Origin: Hamadaea flava
GTDB taxonomy: Bacteria > Actinomycetota > Actinomycetes > Mycobacteriales > Micromonosporaceae
DNA length: 64,000 nucleotides
NCBI RefSeq assembly: GCF_024172085.1
Contig: NZ_JAMZDZ010000001.1
Coordinates: 6,386,001 to 6,450,000 of the forward strand
Direction: 5' to 3'
Positions 2,304 to 58,760 of this stretch are shown one piece after another. The position numbers were made by a program, and so were the translations under genes. Numbering within the stretch: the stretch's first letter is position 1; every line of letters begins with the position of its first letter. A model generated the notes under the pieces. The model saw nothing but the letters and a program-made list of their open reading frames with translations, had not been told where the DNA came from and ran no database searches.

Positions 2304-3124
2304 TCAGGAAAGTCAGCCTCGGCCGCAGGTCGGCGCCCATCGAGCCGACTCCGCATCCGTCGGGTGCCCGCCCGCCGGCGCTGCCCTCCGGAGCGCTGCC
2401 GCGCCACATCGCCGTCGTGATGGACGGCAACGGCCGTTGGGCGAAGGACCGCGGACTTCCTCGGACAGAAGGCCACAAACGGGGCGAATACTCCCTTTTC
2501 GACGCCGTCGAGGGTGCGCTGGAGATCGGCGTCCCGTTCCTGTCGGCGTACGCCTTCTCCACGGAGAACTGGAAGCGCTCGCCGGAAGAGGTGCGCTTCC
2601 TCATGGGCTTCAACCGCGACGTCATCCGGCGCCGCCGGGACCAGCTCGTCGACCTCGGCGTACGCGTCGTCTGGTCGGGTCGCCGAGGCCGGCTCTGGAA
2701 GAGCGTCATCGACGAGCTGGAGACGGCGGAGGAGATGAGCCGCCACAACTCGAAGCTGACCCTCCAGTTCTGCGTGAACTACGGCGGGCAGGCCGAGATC
2801 GCCGACGCGGCGGCCGCCATCGCCCGCGACGTCGCCGAGGGCCGGATCAGCCCGGACCGGGTGAGCGAGAAGCTGTTCGCCAAGTACCTGTACCACCCCG
2901 AGGTGCCCGACGTGGACCTCTTCCTGCGGCCGTCCGGCGAGCAGCGCACCTCCAACTTCCTGATCTGGCAGAGCGCGTACGCCGAGCTGATCTACATGGA
3001 CGTGCTCTGGCCGGACTTCGACCGCCGGCACCTGTGGCACGCCTGCGAGCTGTACGCCCAGCGCGACCGGCGGTTCGGCGGGGCGCTGCCGAACCCGGTC
3101 CCGCCGCCGCCCGCTTCCGCCTGA
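2300..3124 (+). CDS. uppS: Isoprenyl transferase (UPP synthase family)
   Basis: This is a cis-prenyltransferase that extends an allylic diphosphate with isopentenyl diphosphate to make the lipid carrier for cell-wall synthesis. The catalytic motif [11 protein letters not shown] lies at residues 39-49 with Asp42. [13 protein letters not shown] and the C-terminal [12 protein letters not shown] segment bind substrate and Mg. The length of 274 residues is normal, with a ~35-residue basic/proline N-terminal extension. The GTG start overlaps the recO stop. Actinobacteria often carry two paralogues, making short-chain or decaprenyl products; the sequence alone does not say which this is. Confidence 0.95.
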
Positions 3125-3205: not shown

Positions 3206-3379
3206 CCTGCGTCCGCCCGACGGTGCTCGCGTCCGCCCGCCGCTGCCTTCTACCGCCTGAGGGCACCCGCCTCCGGGCGGCCGTCCGCCTCGGGCACGGC
3301 CTGTCTACCTGGGTGCGGCCGTCTTCCATCCTGGCGCGGCGTCCGCCGCCGACTCCACCCCGCGTGCTTTCGGCAAATG

Positions 3380-3467
3380 TTGATCAGGGCGCTAGGTAAG
3401 TGATCATGCCGTCCGGGACACGACACGCCGGTTGATCACGACCGTTAGTTCATGATCGCGCGGAAAG
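3380..3467 (-). repeat. Four-GATC intergenic element, copy A
   Basis: GATC occurs at 3382, 3402, 3434 and 3454, giving spacings of 20, 32 and 20 bp. Positions 3413-3467 are almost identical to the copy at 39908-39993. Read on the minus strand it starts 24 bases after the ecfT stop. Related copies are at 42502-42583 and 56765-56846. No coding potential is seen. Confidence 0.85.
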
Positions 3468-3491
3468 CCGGGGGGACGCGCGGAGGGGGAG

Positions 3492-4223
3492 TCAGCGGGC
3501 GATGACGAGGGCGGCGAGGGCGAGCGAAGCGAGCAGGAGGGCCCAGTCGGCGAGCCCGAAGGGCGAGGGCCGGGCGACGGTCCGGGGCGTACCGGAGTCG
3601 AACCCGCGAGCGTCCATGGCCTGGGCCAGCCGCGTTCCCCGGCGGATGGCCCCGACGAGCAGCCCGAACGCGGTGCCGGCGAACAGCCGTACCCACCGCA
3701 GGGGGTTGCCACCCGCGTCGATGCCTCGGGCGCGGCGGGCCATCGAGATGAGCCGCCATTCTTCGCCGAGCAGCCCGACCAGGCGGAACGCGGCCAGTGC
3801 GCCGATCGCGAAGCGGGCTGGGGCTTTGACGTGCTGGATCAGGGAGTCGGCGAGGTCGGTCGGGTCGGTGGTGGCGTACACGAGGACGGCGGGTAGGGCC
3901 AGCGCGAGCAGCCGCAGCGCGTAGCTCACCGACAGGGACAGGACCGAGGTGGTCACGAGGAACGGCCCGAAGTCCACCAGTACCGCACCCGACCGGTTGG
4001 CGGCGAACAGCGACAGCGAGATCACGACGCTCGCCGCGCCCAGCAGGGCGGGCCAGGCGCGCCGGAGCAAGCCCCAGGGCGTGAGCCCGAACAGCGGCGT
4101 GACCAGCAAGGTCAGCAGCACGATGCCGCCCAGGACGACCGCGTTCAACGTGGTCAGCGCGGCCAAGGACAGCAAGAGCGCGGCGCCGAGCTTCGCGACG
4201 GGGGCACGACGGGCCAGGATCAC
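3492..4223 (-). CDS. ykoC: ECF transporter T component (EcfT/YkoC-like)
   Basis: This 243-residue multi-spanning protein is the energy-coupling transmembrane subunit that joins the ATPase pair to the substrate-binding S component. It has about five hydrophobic segments and the two Ala-Arg-Gly coupling motifs of the family (MARRARGIDAG and AMDARGFD), which dock onto the ATPase. The GTG at 4223 overlaps the ATPase stop in a GTGA junction. It is the last gene of the ykoE-ecfA-ecfT operon under the TPP riboswitch, so hydroxymethylpyrimidine or thiamine is the likely substrate. Confidence 0.9.
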   Translation of the reverse strand: MILARRAPVAKLGAALLLSLAALTTLNAVVLGGIVLLTLLVTPLFGLTPWGLLRRAWPALLGAASVVISLSLFAANRSGAVLVDFGPFLVTTSVLSLSVSYALRLLALALPAVLVYATTDPTDLADSLIQHVKAPARFAIGALAAFRLVGLLGEEWRLISMARRARGIDAGGNPLRWVRLFAGTAFGLLVGAIRRGTRLAQAMDARGFDSGTPRTVARPSPFGLADWALLLASLALAALVIAR

Positions 4224-39849: not shown

Positions 39850-39907
39850 CCGCTGAGCCTAGCGGGGGTATGCCGAAAGTTCGACCGTCAACTATGTCCG
39901 CAGCGTT

Positions 39908-39993
39908 GATCACTCCGTTAGGGAGTTGATCAGGGACTCCGGGACGCGCCACGCCGGTTGATCACGACCGTTAGTTCATGATCGCGCGGAAAG
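39908..39993 (-). repeat. Four-GATC intergenic element, copy B
   Basis: GATC at 39908, 39928, 39960 and 39980 (spacings 20/32/20). The stretch from 39939 is nearly identical to copy A. On the minus strand it begins 11 bases after the stop of the GNAT gene at 40005. Confidence 0.85.
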
Positions 39994-40004
39994 GGACGGG
40001 TGGG

Positions 40005-40517
40005 TTAGGGGCGGGTTAGGAGGGCTAGGCCATCGTCTTCGGCTTGGACCTGCCAGCCCAGCCGGGCGTAGAAGGCCATGGTGGCCGTCGCGGCGGTCCG
40101 GGTGACCAGCCAGGCGGGGGAGTCGTCGAGGACCGTGGTGAGCAGGGTCCGGCCGAGTCCACCGCCGCGGGCGTCCGGGCGTACGGCGAGTTCGACGACC
40201 TCGACGGCGCCGGCCAGGTCGTCGACGACCGCGCCGAACCGGTCGCGGAGCAGTCCGTAGAAGCCGTCGGACGGCACCGGGGACGGGGTGCGTACGCGGA
40301 AAGCGAAACCGGCGATCGCGTCGGGGTCCCGGGCCCAGGCGGCGAGGAATCCGTCCCGGGCGGTCCAGTCGGGCACCGACGCGACGAAGGTACGCACCTG
40401 GTCGGCGGATTCGTCCCAGGGCGGGCCGGAGAACGCGGCGCTGTACACGTCGGCGAGATCGTCGAGGGCGGCGAGGAACGGGGCGGGTTCGGCGTACTCC
40501 ACCGGGGGGTGCGGCAT
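40005..40517 (-). CDS. GNAT-family N-acetyltransferase
   Basis: This 170-residue GNAT protein has the acetyl-CoA loop VVELAVRPDARGGGLGRTLLTTVL and C-terminal TMAFYARLGWQV. An N-terminal ~60 residues (VYSAAFSGPPWDESADQVRTFV) is typical of one actinobacterial subgroup. The substrate is unknown. It is followed on its own strand by four-GATC element B. Confidence 0.85.
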   Translation of the reverse strand: MPHPPVEYAEPAPFLAALDDLADVYSAAFSGPPWDESADQVRTFVASVPDWTARDGFLAAWARDPDAIAGFAFRVRTPSPVPSDGFYGLLRDRFGAVVDDLAGAVEVVELAVRPDARGGGLGRTLLTTVLDDSPAWLVTRTAATATMAFYARLGWQVQAEDDGLALLTRP

Positions 40518-40582: not shown

Positions 40583-40772
40583 ACACGGGAAAGGAGGTGG
40601 TCCAGCTGTATAGCAATGGGACTCGTGAGGTGGCTGTCCGCTAGCCGCTGTCCTTGACTGCTTCGTCAGGGCCGTGTGACAACGGTGTGGCGAATAACAG
40701 GCAGCTACCCGACCCCCAGGGCTTATCCGGCTCAGTCCAGCCGGTCCGCATCACGCGGAACCCTGGGGGTCG
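40583..40772 (+). ncRNA. Probable small RNA or leader with hairpin terminator
   Basis: A 300-bp gap between two minus-strand genes holds a self-contained plus-strand unit: the promoter at 40547-40576, a perfect AAAGGAGG (40590-40597), a short reading frame, a small CCTTGAC/GTCAGGG hairpin (~40651-40671), and a perfect 11-bp hairpin GACCCCCAGGG (40711-40721) / CCCTGGGGGTC (40761-40771) that could terminate it. The order and strong signals look functional. I recall similar AAAGGAGGTGGTCCA-type sequences in other actinomycetes but cannot name a family. Confidence 0.55.
40597..40644 (+). CDS. Candidate 15-residue peptide in small transcript
   Basis: The frame after AAAGGAGG reads VVQLYSNGTREVAVR-stop. 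The GTG at 40597 overlaps the Shine-Dalgarno, so the real start may be the CTG at 40606 or another near-cognate codon. A second frame from the ATG at 40616 reads MGLVRWLSASRCP-stop but is 18 bases from the Shine-Dalgarno. Either could be a leader peptide, or the AAAGGAGG may serve another purpose. Confidence 0.35.
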   Translation: MVQLYSNGTREVAVR

Positions 40773-40817
40773 CACCATTTCCGGCGCACTTTCACCGGGC
40801 GGTCAGGTACCGGGCGG

Positions 40818-41919: not shown

Positions 41920-41928
41920 GTGCTGACT

Positions 41929-42513
41929 GTGACTGATCGCCGTACGCTGCTGCTCGACGCCGCGATCGAAGTGCTGGGCACCCGGGGACTCCGGCAGCTG
42001 ACCCACCGGACGGTGGACGCGGTGGCCGGGCTGCCCGAGGGATCGGCGTCCAACCACTTCCGTACGCGGGAAGCCCTGATCAGCGGGGTGCTCGGTCGCC
42101 TGGTCGACCGGGAGACCGAACTGTGGGGCCGCCTGGGTGGTGCGCAGCCGTTGGACGCGGAGCGATTCGCGACCGCGGCCGGCGCGATGATCACGGAGCT
42201 GGCCGGTCCCGGCCGGGCCGTCACGCTCGCCCGGTACGCGATCTTCCACGAAGCGGCGTTCAACCCCGATCTTCAGCGGCGGATCGCGGAGAACCGGGAA
42301 CGGCTCGCCGCCTGGGGAGTGCCCCTGGTCGCGGCGTTGGGCTCGACCGAGCCGGAACGGCATTACCGGATGCTGCTGGACCTGATCGACGGGCTGCTGC
42401 TGAACCAGCTCGCCAGCCCGACCTCCTCCTTCGACCCCGCCACCACCATCCGCACCCTCCTGTCGGCCATCACCCCCACCCCCACCACCCCCGCCCCGTC
42501 TGCGCGATCATGA
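41929..42513 (+). CDS. TetR-family repressor
   Basis: This 194-residue TetR regulator has an N-terminal helix-turn-helix (LLLDAAIEVLGTRGLRQLTHRTVDAVAGLPEGSASNHFRTREAL) and a helical effector domain. The GTG at 41929 (MTDRRTLLLDAA) fits the family; the GTG at 41920 overlaps the operator end. It should repress itself and the divergent monooxygenase. Its C-terminus is a Pro/Thr tail that runs into four-GATC element C. Confidence 0.9.
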   Translation: MTDRRTLLLDAAIEVLGTRGLRQLTHRTVDAVAGLPEGSASNHFRTREALISGVLGRLVDRETELWGRLGGAQPLDAERFATAAGAMITELAGPGRAVTLARYAIFHEAAFNPDLQRRIAENRERLAAWGVPLVAALGSTEPERHYRMLLDLIDGLLLNQLASPTSSFDPATTIRTLLSAITPTPTTPAPSARS

Positions 42514-42583
42514 ACTCATGTTCGTGATCGACCGGTGTGTCGTGTCCCGGAGACCCTGATCAACTCCTCTGCGGAATGATCAA
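42502..42583 (+). repeat. Four-GATC intergenic element, copy C
   Basis: GATC at 42506, 42526, 42558 and 42578 (20/32/20). The tetR stop codon lies inside the first block. GATCATGAAC/GTTCGTGATC forms a 10-bp RNA stem with one G-U pair and a 4-base loop (42506-42529). Confidence 0.85.
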
Positions 42584-42605
42584 CGAGGCGGGGAGCGGCG
42601 TTGGT

Positions 42606-43517
42606 TTAGGCGGGGAGGCGTACGACGTTGTAGGTCACGTCCGGCGCCGGGTCGACGTCGAACCGGGCGTTCACGGCGTACAGGTAGGGGCCGAAGAGCG
42701 CGATCGTCGCCGGGACCTGCAGTCGCGGATCGGTGATCTCGTCGACCAGCACCGCCCGGTCCGTCCCGAGGGCGAACTTCGCGATGATGTTGTCGGAGTT
42801 GCGGCAGATGTAGAGCGTCCGGCCGCGGCGGATCATCCCGTCGCCGTTGAGGACGCCGGCCCCGCCGAGGTCGACCTGGGTGGCCTTGCCGCGCCGGGGG
42901 TCGAAGGCGAACAGCCGCCCGGCGACCATCTGCACGATGAGCAGCTGCCGCCCGTCCGGCGTGGTCTCGATGCCGTTGTTGAAGGCGTCCACTTCGCCGA
43001 GCCCGCCCGGCAGCGTGATCGCGTACGCCGCCGACGGGTCGGGCAGCCGGCCGCCCCGGCCGAGTGGCACCACGAAGAGCTGGTCGCTGGGGGAGTCGGT
43101 GAAATAGACGGCGTCCTCGGTCGCGATCGCGTCGTTCACAAAGCCGCCGCCGAACTGGTATTCGGCGAGTTTCGCGCCGGTGTTCCCGTCGTAGACGATC
43201 GCTCCGCCGTTCGGGCCGGTGCAGGCCCAGATCCGGTTGAAGCGGTCGATCTCCAGCCCGATCAGGTGGCCGTCGGCCGGTCCCGGGATGAACACGCCAC
43301 CCCGTCCGGTCAGCAGGCTGCCCCGGTAGATCGAGCCGGTCGCGATGGAGCCGACGTAGAAGTGAGTACCCGAGACCGCGATCCCTTCGGGATTCCAGCC
43401 GTCGGGCAGGTCGATGACCTCCGGCAGGGTGGCGCCACCGGCCTGGGCGGGCGTCCCGCCGAGCAGTCCGGCCAGCGGCGCGGCCGCCAGCGCGGCCACC
43501 ATCGTCCTTCTGCGCAT
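42606..43517 (-). CDS. Secreted SMP-30/NHL-type beta-propeller protein
   Basis: This 303-residue exported protein has a signal sequence with a twin-arginine-like start (MRRRTMVAALAAAPLAGLLGG...AQA). The rest is a repeated four-strand blade pattern (WNPEGIAVSGTHFYVGS, HLIGLEIDRFNRIWACTG, NNGIETTPDGRQLLIVQ) typical of SMP-30/superoxide-dismutase-like propellers in actinobacteria. Enzymatic activity is uncertain. AAGGAGG lies seven bases before the ATG at 43517. Confidence 0.83.
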   Translation of the reverse strand: MRRRTMVAALAAAPLAGLLGGTPAQAGGATLPEVIDLPDGWNPEGIAVSGTHFYVGSIATGSIYRGSLLTGRGGVFIPGPADGHLIGLEIDRFNRIWACTGPNGGAIVYDGNTGAKLAEYQFGGGFVNDAIATEDAVYFTDSPSDQLFVVPLGRGGRLPDPSAAYAITLPGGLGEVDAFNNGIETTPDGRQLLIVQMVAGRLFAFDPRRGKATQVDLGGAGVLNGDGMIRRGRTLYICRNSDNIIAKFALGTDRAVLVDEITDPRLQVPATIALFGPYLYAVNARFDVDPAPDVTYNVVRLPA

Positions 43518-55164: not shown

Positions 55165-55518
55165 ATGGGACTGCGGTGGTATGGCGTGGTTGTCGACGCG
55201 GCCGATCCGGCCCGGCTGGGCCGCTGGTGGGCCGAGGTGCTCGGCTACCCGATCCTCGACGAGCGTAACGGCGAGCTGACGATCGGGCCCGACATCGACA
55301 TGCCGTGTCTCCATTTCACCCCGGCCCACAAGGGCAAGTCCGGGAAGAACCGGCTGCATCTGGACCTCGTCCCGGACGACCAGGACGCCCAGGTCGAGCG
55401 CCTGATCGACATGGGCGCCCGGCAGGTCGACATCGGTCAGGGCCAGGTCAGCTGGGTCGTGCTCGCGGACCCGGAAGGCAACGAGTTCTGCGTCATGCGG
55501 GAGAAGGCCGGAGAGTAG
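55165..55518 (+). CDS. VOC-superfamily (glyoxalase-like) protein
   Basis: This 117-residue vicinal-oxygen-chelate protein of the glyoxalase_6 type has WYGVVVDAADPARLGRWWAEVLGY, RLHLDLVPDD and WVVLADPEGNEFCVM. Two betaalphabetabetabeta units can be traced. The function is unknown. Its TAG shares a base with the dgt GTG start, so the two are coupled. Confidence 0.88.
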   Translation: MGLRWYGVVVDAADPARLGRWWAEVLGYPILDERNGELTIGPDIDMPCLHFTPAHKGKSGKNRLHLDLVPDDQDAQVERLIDMGARQVDIGQGQVSWVVLADPEGNEFCVMREKAGE

Positions 55519-56735
55519 TGACCGCCCAGGAGATCGACGCCGAGCGCTGGATCGCCGAGGTCCGCAAGGACACCGGCGAGGAGCGGAACGCGTTCGAGCG
55601 GGACCGGGCCCGGGTGCTGCACTCGGCGGCGTTCCGCCGGCTGGCGGCCAAGACCCAGGTGCACACCGCCGGGTCGGACGACTTTCTGCGTACGCGGCTG
55701 ACGCACTCGCTGGAGGTCGCTCAGATCGCTCGTGAGATGGGGGAGCGGCTCGGCTGCGATCCCGACGTGACCGACGTCGCCGGGCTGGCCCACGACCTCG
55801 GGCACCCGCCGTTCGGGCACAACGGCGAGGACGCGCTCGACGAGGTCGCCGCGGCCTGCGGCGGATTCGAGGGCAACGCCCAGACGCTGCGCGTACTGAC
55901 CCGGCTGGAGGCGAAGATCCCGGGCGCGGGACTCAACCTGACCCGGGCCTCCCTCGACGCGACCTGCAAATACCCGTGGCCCCGGCGGCCGGGCAGCCGC
56001 AAATTCGGGGTGTACGCCGACGACGCGGCGGTCTTCGCCTGGCTGCGTACGTCTGCCCCCGACCCCGACCGGCGCTGCCTGGAGGCGCAGGTCATGGACT
56101 GGGCCGACGACGTGGCGTACTCGGTGCACGACGTCGAGGACGGGATCTTCTCCGGCTTCGTCCAGGTCGGCCTGCTCGTCGACGACGCCGACGAGCAAGC
56201 CGCCCTCTGCGCCGACGTGGCGGCGATCTACTCCGACGAACCGGCCGACGTCCTCCGGGAGGCGCTGGCCGAACTGCTCGCCGACCCCGTGCTGGCCCGG
56301 CTCTCGGCGTACGACGGCACCCATCGGGGGCAGGCGCTGCTCAAGGACAGCACCTCCGTGCTCACCGGGCGCTTCGTGGCCGCCGCGGTGACGGCCACGC
56401 GGGAGGCGTACCCGGGGAAGTCGAGCCGCTATGACGCGGACCTGATCGTGCCCCGCTCGGCCCGGATCCGGTGTGCCCTGCTGAAGGGCATAGCGCTGCG
56501 TTACGTGATGCGGCGGCGCGGCATGGAACCCTGGTACGCCCGCCAGCGCGAGATCCTCGCCGACCTCGTGCGGGTGCTGAGCGAACGCGCGCCGACCGAG
56601 CTGGACCCGGTCTTCGCTCCACTCTGGAAGGACGCGCCCGACGACGCGGCCCGGCTGCGCGTGATCGTCGACCAGGTGGCCTCGCTCACCGACCCGGCCG
56701 CCGTCGCCTGGCACGCCCGCCTCCTCGCCCCCTAA
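55518..56735 (+). CDS. dgt: Deoxyguanosinetriphosphate triphosphohydrolase-like protein
   Basis: This 405-residue HD-domain dNTPase has RTRLTHSLEVAQIAREMG and the metal pair in AHDLGHPPFGHNGE, with late VMDWADDVAYSVHDVEDG completing the HD site. It hydrolyses dNTPs to deoxynucleosides and tripolyphosphate. The GTG at 55518 follows GGAGAG. It lies before dnaG, as in many actinomycetes. Confidence 0.95.
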   Translation: MTAQEIDAERWIAEVRKDTGEERNAFERDRARVLHSAAFRRLAAKTQVHTAGSDDFLRTRLTHSLEVAQIAREMGERLGCDPDVTDVAGLAHDLGHPPFGHNGEDALDEVAAACGGFEGNAQTLRVLTRLEAKIPGAGLNLTRASLDATCKYPWPRRPGSRKFGVYADDAAVFAWLRTSAPDPDRRCLEAQVMDWADDVAYSVHDVEDGIFSGFVQVGLLVDDADEQAALCADVAAIYSDEPADVLREALAELLADPVLARLSAYDGTHRGQALLKDSTSVLTGRFVAAAVTATREAYPGKSSRYDADLIVPRSARIRCALLKGIALRYVMRRRGMEPWYARQREILADLVRVLSERAPTELDPVFAPLWKDAPDDAARLRVIVDQVASLTDPAAVAWHARLLAP

Positions 56736-56764
56736 CCCTCCCACCCTCACCCCCCCTGCTTTCG

Positions 56765-56846
56765 GCGCGATCATGAACTAATGGTCGTGATCAGCCGGTG
56801 TGTCGTGTCCTGGGGACCCTGATCGACTCCGCGCCGGCATGATCGA
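56765..56846 (+). repeat. Four-GATC intergenic element, copy D
   Basis: GATC at 56769, 56789, 56821 and 56841 (20/32/20), starting 30 bases after the dgt stop. The sequence has drifted most from copies A-C, yet the spacing is unchanged. Confidence 0.85.
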
Positions 56847-56912
56847 TTCGAGCCCGGACCGGCGGTCTCGGGCGTGGTGAACGTCGTCGGTGGCTCGCCC
56901 TAGGATGTGGGT

Positions 56913-58760
56913 ATGGCCGGACGGATCCGCGACGAGGACATCGCGCTAGTGCGTGAGCGCACCTCCGTCGTCGACGTGATCTCCGAGCACGTGACGTTGA
57001 AGGGCTCGGGTGGGCGCAACCTGAAGGGGTTGTGCCCGTTCCATGACGAGAAGACCCCTTCGTTCACCGTGGCCGGCGACCGTAATGTCTACTTCTGCCA
57101 CGGTTGTGGCAAGGGCGGCGACGCGATCAACTTCGTCATGGAGATCGACCACCTGCGGTTCACCGAGGCGGTCGAGAAGCTGGCCGCCCGCGCCGGCATC
57201 CAGCTGCGCTACATCGAGGGCGGCTCGGCGCCGGTCCGCCAGCAGCACGGCCAGCGGCAGCGGCTGATCGCCGCGCACGCCGCGGCGGCGAAGTTCTACG
57301 CGGAGCAGCTGATGACCCCGGGCGCCCGCATCGCCCGGGAGTTCCTCGCTCAGCGGGGCTTCGACCGGGGCGCCGCCGAGACCTACGGCTGCGGCTTCGC
57401 CCCCGATTCGTGGGACGCGCTGACCAAGCACTTGCGGCAACTCGGCTTCACCGCCGAGGAGCTGACCGTCGGCGGGCTGGCCAAGCCGGCCCGGTCGGGC
57501 AGCCTCATCGACCGGTTCCGCCGCCGGTTGATCTGGCCCATCCGGGAGACCGGCGGCGACGTCATCGGGTTCGGCGCGCGGAAGCTGTTCGACGACGACG
57601 ACGGCCCCAAATACCTGAACACCCCGGAGACCCCGCTCTACAAGAAGTCGACCGTGCTCTACGGCATCGACCTCGCCAAGCGGGAGATCGGCAAGCGCGG
57701 CCAGGCGGTCGTGGTCGAGGGCTACACCGATGTGATGGCCTGCCACCTGGCCGGAGTGCCGACGGCGGTGGCGACCTGCGGGACGGCCTTCGGCTCCGAG
57801 CACATCTCGGTGCTGCGCCGGATGCTCATGGACACCGACACGTTCAAGGGCGAGATCATCTTCACCTTCGACGGCGACGCCGCCGGGCAGAAGGCCGCGC
57901 TCCGCGCGTTCGCCGACGACCAGCGGTTCGTCGGGCAGACCTTCATCGCGGTCGGGCCGGACGGGATGGACCCCTGCGAGCTGCGGCTGGATCGCGGCGA
58001 CACGGCCGTCCGCGACCTGGTGGCCAGCCGGGAGCGCCTGGTCTCGTTCGTTCTGCGTACGACGATCGCGGGGTTCGACCTCGACTCCGCCGAAGGCCGG
58101 GTGGGTGCGCTCCGGGCGACCGCCCCGCTGGTGGCGCAGATCAAGGACCGGTCGCTGCGCCCGGAATACGGCCGCATCCTCGCGGGCAAGCTCGGCATGG
58201 AGGTCGAGGTCGTCCAGCGCGCGGTGAACGCGTCCGTCAAGGGCCAGCCGGTCGACGCCCGCCCGCCCCGGCCGCGTACCAGTCCGGACGATCCGCAGAT
58301 CCTGGTCGAGCGGGAGGCGCTCAAGCTCGCCATCCAGGTTCCGGCGCTGGCCGGGCCGGTCTTCGACAACGCCGAGGCCGACTGCTACTCCGACCCGCAG
58401 CACGTGCAGATCCGGCTGGCCATCGCGGCCGCCGGCGGCGCGGTGCGCGGGGTGTCCGGGCCGAACTGGATCGCCGCGATCACCGACGGCTGCGGTGACC
58501 TGATGGCGCAGTCGCTGGTGAACCAGCTCGCCGTGGAGGAGCTGCGCTATGACGGCGACGCCGATCCGCACTACGTGACGGTGACCCTCGCCCGGCTCCA
58601 GCTCGCGGCGGTCGACCGGCGGGTGCACAACGTCAAGTCCAAGCTCCAGCGGATCAATCCGGTCACGCAGAAGGACGAGTACTTCGGGCTGTTCAGCGAC
58701 CTCGTGTCGCTGGAGACCACCGCTCGCGCCCTGCGCGACCAAGCATCGAGTGGGTTGTGA
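56913..58760 (+). CDS. dnaG: DNA primase
   Basis: This 615-residue primase makes RNA primers for replication. It has an N-terminal CHC2 zinc ribbon (Cys41, His44, Cys62, Cys65), the RNA-polymerase/TOPRIM core with VVVEGYTDVMACHLAG and TFDGDAAGQKAA, and a C-terminal DnaB-interaction region. The ATG at 56913 (MAGRIRDEDI) matches family starts better than the GTG at 56907. The stop overlaps the next gene. Confidence 0.96.
   Translation: MAGRIRDEDIALVRERTSVVDVISEHVTLKGSGGRNLKGLCPFHDEKTPSFTVAGDRNVYFCHGCGKGGDAINFVMEIDHLRFTEAVEKLAARAGIQLRYIEGGSAPVRQQHGQRQRLIAAHAAAAKFYAEQLMTPGARIAREFLAQRGFDRGAAETYGCGFAPDSWDALTKHLRQLGFTAEELTVGGLAKPARSGSLIDRFRRRLIWPIRETGGDVIGFGARKLFDDDDGPKYLNTPETPLYKKSTVLYGIDLAKREIGKRGQAVVVEGYTDVMACHLAGVPTAVATCGTAFGSEHISVLRRMLMDTDTFKGEIIFTFDGDAAGQKAALRAFADDQRFVGQTFIAVGPDGMDPCELRLDRGDTAVRDLVASRERLVSFVLRTTIAGFDLDSAEGRVGALRATAPLVAQIKDRSLRPEYGRILAGKLGMEVEVVQRAVNASVKGQPVDARPPRPRTSPDDPQILVEREALKLAIQVPALAGPVFDNAEADCYSDPQHVQIRLAIAAAGGAVRGVSGPNWIAAITDGCGDLMAQSLVNQLAVEELRYDGDADPHYVTVTLARLQLAAVDRRVHNVKSKLQRINPVTQKDEYFGLFSDLVSLETTARALRDQASSGL

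Follow-up and report, generated by a model that had tools for sequence, protein, structure and literature searches.

Background

Among described repeats, the closest to the element reported here are REP and BIME sequences. As set out in the main text of PMC3733652, these are intergenic and of high copy number, lie near 3′ ends, most often in convergent or unidirectional gaps, can supply stop codons from the element ends, occur also as dimers, and include the GTAG and CGTC super-families. Actinobacteria are not mentioned by that word in its main text, and part of a table in PMC12306157, giving REP candidates from three Actinomycetota genomes, contains none of the family described below. MITEs, intrinsic terminators and Rho-dependent terminators offer further points of comparison. 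The rut sites of Rho-dependent terminators are not known to have a conserved geometry of spaced sites. Protein roadblock terminators would account for a DNA geometry that is rigid where genes end.

The Hamadaea flava element resembles REP and BIME sequences in being intergenic, in its high copy number, in its placement at gene ends, in overlapping stop codons and in forming dimers, which here are inverted pairs. However, a REP is a palindrome of 20–40 bp, whereas this element is ~90 bp long and has two 20-bp GATC modules with a conserved linker and imperfect dyads. Its consensus edge is CTTTCCGCGC-GATC and not GTAG or CGTC; CGTC or CGTT precedes many of the copies in Catellatospora and Allorhizocola. 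The RAYT transposase domain (Y1_Tnp, PF01797) was found in none of four Hamadaea genomes, compared with five of 14 control genomes, and we therefore reject membership of a RAYT-mobilised REP family in Hamadaea. The element behaves like a REP without fitting the definition of one. Like a MITE it is short, non-coding and present in many copies, and its copies in the sister genera seem by eye to have imperfect inverted ends, but neither a target-site duplication nor a parent transposase was identified and most copies in relatives keep their place between species (31 of 43; see below). It differs from intrinsic terminators in that its consensus has no T-run and T-tract terminators are scarcer where it lies. 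As in Rho-dependent terminators, a stretch with much C and little G (C 0.56–0.58, G 0.20–0.22) lies on its upstream side when read in sense, which differs from a rut site in being present in antisense placements as well.

No description appeared among the matches listed when the open-access literature was searched for the element's sequences, for Hamadaea and Catellatospora repeats and for actinobacterial repeats and MITEs. An Rfam scan of the window (the whole 64,000-nucleotide stretch of H. flava DNA analysed) at gathering scores returned Ms_IGR-5 alone, elsewhere in the window, and no match at the element copies. Both results agree with an earlier sequence-only reading of this DNA, which had recognised no described family. 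The element is a large family of gene-end repeats for which these literature searches listed no description.

Copies in the window and in the genome

Four exact copies of an array of four GATC sites, spaced 20, 32 and 20 bp apart, were matched directly in the window (Table 1), at the places and with the spacing that the sequence-only reading had given; 100 dinucleotide shuffles of the window yielded none. Single GATC tetramers are common in any case, with 588 in the 64 kb. A pattern search of the complete genome (8,864,410 bases, one contig) found 140 exact copies and no copy of the reversed pattern.

Table 1. Element copies and a neighbouring RNA in the window, and variant or paired copies in other fetched loci
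Feature	Coordinates	Sense strand	First GATC	Score (bits)	Setting or remark
Copy 1	3378..3469	-	3382	80.8	Gap between converging CbiQ-like gene 3492-4223(-) and undecaprenyl diphosphate synthase gene 2420-3124(+)
Copy 2	39904..39995	-	39908	84.8	Downstream of GNAT acetyltransferase gene 40005-40517(-)
Copy 3	42494..42585	+	42506	80.8	TGA stop of TetR-type gene 41920-42513(+) inside GATCATGAAC; converging gene 42606-43502(-) on far side
Copy 4	56757..56848	+	56769	84.4	Between HD-domain gene 55518-56735(+) and dnaG 56913-58760(+)
Ms_IGR-5 (RF02471)	40583-40778	+		95.7	Actinobacterial sRNA, near copy 2
Replaced linker	L102:6372-6482				
Replaced linker	L079:7768-7867				Shares GTTTTCGCAGGTCGC with L059
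Replaced linker	L059:8829-8926				Shares GTTTTCGCAGGTCGC with L079
Replaced linker	L315				Shares GGGTGGTTTC with L319
Replaced linker	L319				Shares GGGTGGTTTC with L315
Close pair	L079:3490-3690				Similar 26-bp linker
Close pair	L089:3490-3690				Similar 26-bp linker
Close pair	L100:3490-3690				Similar 26-bp linker

We fetched 136 of the 140 exact copies for analysis. A sequence-only covariance model (R1) was built on 104 rows, one of which (copy 5664701) is in the wrong orientation; the same misoriented row stands in alignment A2 and in the linked-column analysis. Searched against the H. flava genome, R1 gave at least 150 matches, 131 of them among the fetched exact copies and 19 outside that fetched set; five fetched exact copies were absent from the 150 scored. 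Together with three copies that have long linkers, this brings the known copies, variants included, to ~158.

Two GATC modules joined by a conserved linker

The element, conserved edges included, measures ~90 bp. On the sense strand it starts with CTTTCCGCGC, continues as GATCATGAACTWWCGGTCGTGATCRACCGGCGTGTCGTGTCCnnnGCRCCCTGATCRACTCCnnnnnnnnnTGATC and ends in RACT. The four sites fall into two modules, each of two GATC 20 bp apart, and a conserved linker (32 bp, site to site) joins them; sites 1 and 2 form an imperfect dyad. It had been proposed that the bases between the GATC sites have drifted. Indeed, the variable columns change freely, but the description does not fit the core as a whole: over 76 columns, identity was at least 95% in 39 (among them GATCATGAAC and part of the central linker), 75–95% in 14 and below 75% in 23.

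Copies lie mostly at gene ends, with a bias in polarity

Gene context was assigned to the 136 fetched copies with our own simple, unvalidated gene caller. No copy lay inside a gene, and some overlapped a gene end. Convergent gaps held 67 copies and tandem gaps 60 (40 in the sense and 20 in the antisense orientation), with eight in divergent gaps and one unassigned, whereas, in the same loci, the gaps of 60 bp or longer that hold no element comprised 28 convergent, 137 tandem and 105 divergent. Enrichment at gene ends is thus borne out.

Polarity is a bias, not a rule. The sense orientation was preferred in tandem gaps (40:20, p 0.013), and in convergent gaps the sense stop was the nearer one in 43 of 67 cases (p 0.027). 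In the smaller sets from relatives, the sense to antisense ratio was 5:2 in Catellatospora, 6:5 in Allorhizocola and 4:3 in Hamadaea MAGs, a weaker bias or none. For support, the sequence-only reading had looked to a genome scan with many copies, enriched just after stop codons and at fixed polarity. Many copies and an enrichment at gene ends are indeed seen. As for fixed polarity, the four window copies do share one polarity relative to the gene, but as a rule for the genome we reject it on account of the 20 antisense and eight divergent copies and the weaker bias in relatives. Its placing of each copy 0–30 bases after a stop codon is roughly right: by our gene caller the stop precedes the conserved edge by 24, 11 and 23 bp in three copies, and in the fourth it falls within the element.

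Close pairs, defined as neighbours less than 600 bp apart for exact H. flava copies and less than 500 bp apart among the listed matches of Catellatospora sp. KI3 (G019) and Allorhizocola rhizosphaerae (G022), were tail to tail in 17 of 17 cases (8/8, 5/5 and 4/4, respectively). The same arrangement was seen in two further H. flava pairs with a long-linker partner. The gaps within the eight exact pairs were 16, 26, 26, 26, 27, 36, 47 and 443 bp; pair spans were 163, 171, 244, 470 and 496 in Catellatospora and 124, 124, 140 and 158 in Allorhizocola. Three close pairs have a similar 26-bp linker (Table 1), as though the pair had itself been copied as one composite unit.

The four-site form is confined to part of one genus

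Elsewhere in the genus, exact four-site copies numbered 103 in Hamadaea Bin8.36 (G001), 76 in a second genome (G002) and none in a third (G003), in which R1 likewise found nothing. Across 300 family genomes the exact four-site pattern was positive in five: three were Hamadaea, and each of the other two had a single unrelated site. A shorter exact core, searched in 354 genomes of the family (Micromonosporaceae), was positive in 12: three of four Hamadaea, eight of 11 Catellatospora, the single Allorhizocola and no other genus. In named genomes the core pattern gave 109 stretches, and among the 80 matches listed all came from Hamadaea MAGs, Catellatospora and Allorhizocola. Over 41 relatives, R1 had matches in 12, with at least 105 in each of three Hamadaea (all scored), 88 in Catellatospora sp. 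KI3, 147 in A. rhizosphaerae and one to nine weak matches in each of seven others. In G310, a 3.0-Mb genome from another family of the order, the weak R1 matches numbered nine (best E 5.5e-5). Since one of four Hamadaea has no copy and three of 11 Catellatospora have no exact core match, the element looks dispensable.

The distance from site 1 to site 2 was 20 in all copies examined from Catellatospora (36/36), Allorhizocola (24/24) and Hamadaea MAGs (23/23), a value largely fixed by the fetching pattern. Sites 2 and 3 were mostly 31 apart in Catellatospora (32 of 36; three copies had 32, and one had no third site that could be found) and in Allorhizocola (20 of 24; one copy had 29, and three had no third site that could be found). 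In the Hamadaea MAGs this distance was 32 in 18 of 23 and 52 in four, with the third site not found in one; the value of 52 suggests a changed third site. Eighteen Hamadaea MAG copies had a fourth site, always at 20; in Catellatospora and Allorhizocola one was found just four times, with no common distance. Judged from these distances, the regular fourth site makes the 20/32/20 ruler look like a Hamadaea extension of a three-site core (mostly 20/31).

Lengths are held where bases change freely

We compared 43 copies from relatives with H. flava loci. Of these, 31 paired with an H. flava copy at the same place, and orientation agreed in 30; the sole exception is a member of a close pair, likely matched to its partner. 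Nine had no homologous locus among those fetched and, since 136 of 140 were fetched, probably have no exact H. flava copy there. The remaining three had a homologous locus with no exact copy within 400 bp; one corresponds to an H. flava copy with a changed GATC at 7574082 and another, L127, had been paired in an earlier comparison. In the 31 pairs, whose loci were 81–95% identical, differences per site were 0.005 in near-invariant columns, 0.12 in intermediate and 0.36 in variable ones. The flanks of 30 pairs showed 130 gap openings to 535 mismatches (0.24 per mismatch), and by simple arithmetic this rate predicts ~60 indels alongside the ~256 variable-column differences. However, a pair was counted only where each of the two copies matched the pattern exactly, so no indel can appear and the between-species length result is ascertained.

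The R1 search is therefore the fairer measure of length, and it revealed few linker changes and no changed module length. Fourteen of the 19 matches outside the fetched exact set have a changed GATC at fixed spacing (site 2 in seven, site 3 in two and site 4 in five, in two of which the model match ends early), two have a 34-bp linker and three are exact, with four GATC. None of the 19 has lost the first GATC. The 653,032 bases that surround 104 of the copies contain three further ones, whose linkers measure 41, 42 and 55 bp and whose 20-bp modules are both kept. Since that sequence was chosen by its exact copies, the share of altered copies in it is not representative; of the four copies in the 64-kb window, none was altered. 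In five copies the central linker is replaced by other sequence, parts of which are common to two loci (Table 1).

The flank indel rate, the linker variants and the model search together favour the proposed selection for geometry: variable bases change freely and lengths hardly do. The accompanying suggestion, that helical phasing places all sites on one face, does not hold strictly. The spacing is 31 in one set of genera (the three-site form being mostly 20/31 in Catellatospora and Allorhizocola) and 32 in the other, and linkers of 34 and 55 bp occur, so an invariant helical phase is not supported across genera or in linker variants.

A C-rich leader belongs to the element

On the sense strand, the first site is preceded by a leader of ~60–90 bp with much C and little A or G. 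Within the 30 bases next to the edge, C makes up 56–58%, G 20–22% and A 7–8%, and the skew fades over ~100 bp. It is alike in convergent, tandem-sense and antisense or divergent placements, and is found in other genera too. Because the leader is equally strong in antisense and divergent copies, we assign it to the element and reject it as a property of transcribed gene ends; this independence also weakens a reading of it as a rut site. Of 135 copies, 45 had tandem repeats on the first-site side and 24 on the opposite side, compared with 26 of 163 control 3′ flanks. Within the C-rich spacer, short repeats of this kind (e.g. L078, L087, L064, L097 and L073) often hold the element's edge CTTTCCGCGC, sometimes with GATC, as if they had been duplicated from that boundary.

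A candidate gene-end signal read in DNA

Our preferred, still tentative reading of the sequence data (probability about 0.4) is a dispersed, clade-restricted gene-end element whose core would be read as double-stranded DNA by a putative protein and would end the transcription unit. The protein would contact the double-stranded DNA of both modules from a single face, and this protein–DNA complex would mark where the transcription unit ends and stop or pause RNA polymerase. The C-rich leader may serve as a Rho-loading (rut-like) stretch in the transcript, and core and leader together would probably limit read-through. Converging genes could each carry their own copy, tail to tail, and the element would spread and turn over as REP repeats do. 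Consistent with such a role, T-tract terminators were rarer at element-bearing ends (18/94) than at convergent (24/78) or tandem (62/176) control ends (pooled 86/254; Fisher p 0.008), and the strongest hairpin was weaker (mean −20.0 versus −23.7 and −22.6 kcal/mol, respectively). It is as though the element took the place of a terminator, although the G-poor, C-rich spacer may also cause the difference. That a ruler-like array of candidate protein sites, three at ~20/31 or four at 20/32/20, would stop RNA polymerase at scores of gene ends strikes us as rather doubtful. If true, one actinobacterial clade would use a double-stranded DNA end-of-gene signal as an alternative to intrinsic terminators.

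The signal could instead act in RNA, as has been suggested for REPs, with transcript hairpins at sites 1–2 (and 3–4) terminating transcription or shielding the 3′ end of the mRNA against exonucleases. The imperfect dyad of sites 1 and 2 does fold, at a mean of −14.9 kcal/mol in sense, −13.2 in antisense and −7.7 in single-base shuffles, and the sense hairpin is the more stable in 84 of 104 copies; the consensus fold gave −11.3 in sense, −6.3 in antisense and −1.0 (sd 1.3) in column shuffles. In all three genera, nearly every copy has U-G or U-A at pair 6/19, and the outer pair −3/28 is swapped from mostly G-C in Hamadaea (113/136) to C-G in Catellatospora (31/37). Against this, the RNAalifold covariation term is close to zero, the most strongly linked columns make no base pairs, pair 3/22 is T-T in 37/37 Catellatospora and 24/26 Allorhizocola copies, and a mismatch is seen in two of the three genera at pair 8/17 and likewise at pair 9/16. 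Moreover, hairpin 2 is more stable in antisense (−8.5) than in sense (−6.5), and a hairpin does not require a fixed loop length. The absent covariation and the mismatches fixed in two genera weaken the case for a conserved RNA stem, which makes a role in RNA unlikely; together with the non-pairing linked columns and the strand preference of hairpin 2, they lead us to prefer reading as double-stranded DNA.

Possible, if doubtful, is a selfish REP- or MITE-like repeat that spreads by a transposase or by copying and survives mainly at gene ends, where insertion harms least, its conservation reflecting sequence needed for mobility. High copy number confined to three related genera, with absences, fits this view, as do the imperfect inverted ends in Catellatospora and Allorhizocola (seen by eye, unscored), the excess of tandem repeats on the first-site side and the presence or absence of copies between species, seen in the nine relative copies without a homologous fetched locus and in two further comparisons, neither of them a clean insertion. 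The order of preference, convergent over tandem over divergent gaps, is what tolerance alone predicts. However, a search for transposases of the Y1 (RAYT) family found none in the four Hamadaea genomes, and 31 of 43 relative copies share their place with an H. flava copy, 30 of these in the same orientation. No target-site duplication was established, and orientation-blind insertion would not be expected to give tail-to-tail pairs in 17 of 17 cases. The preference for convergent gaps would also suit a chromosome-organising site, such as a gyrase or nucleoid-protein site, where converging transcription builds supercoils, and the gaps of the seven closest H. flava pairs (16–47 bp) differ by steps of about one helical turn. 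Yet at least three of the 26–27 bp gaps share a similar linker and are not independent, so these steps rest on few independent cases; the eighth gap is 443 bp, the pair spans in Catellatospora and Allorhizocola are not clearly phased, and 60 of 136 copies lie in tandem gaps. We regard a role of this kind as improbable.

Because lengths are constrained although bases change freely, a direct test between DNA-bound proteins and RNA hairpins in ending transcription is possible. The three-site and four-site forms, the altered linkers and the absences also provide a natural series for studying how repeats become functional.

Copies are unevenly spread along the H. flava chromosome: of 155 positions counted, none falls in 1.5–2.0 Mb or beyond 8.5 Mb, and 23 fall in 4.0–4.5 Mb.
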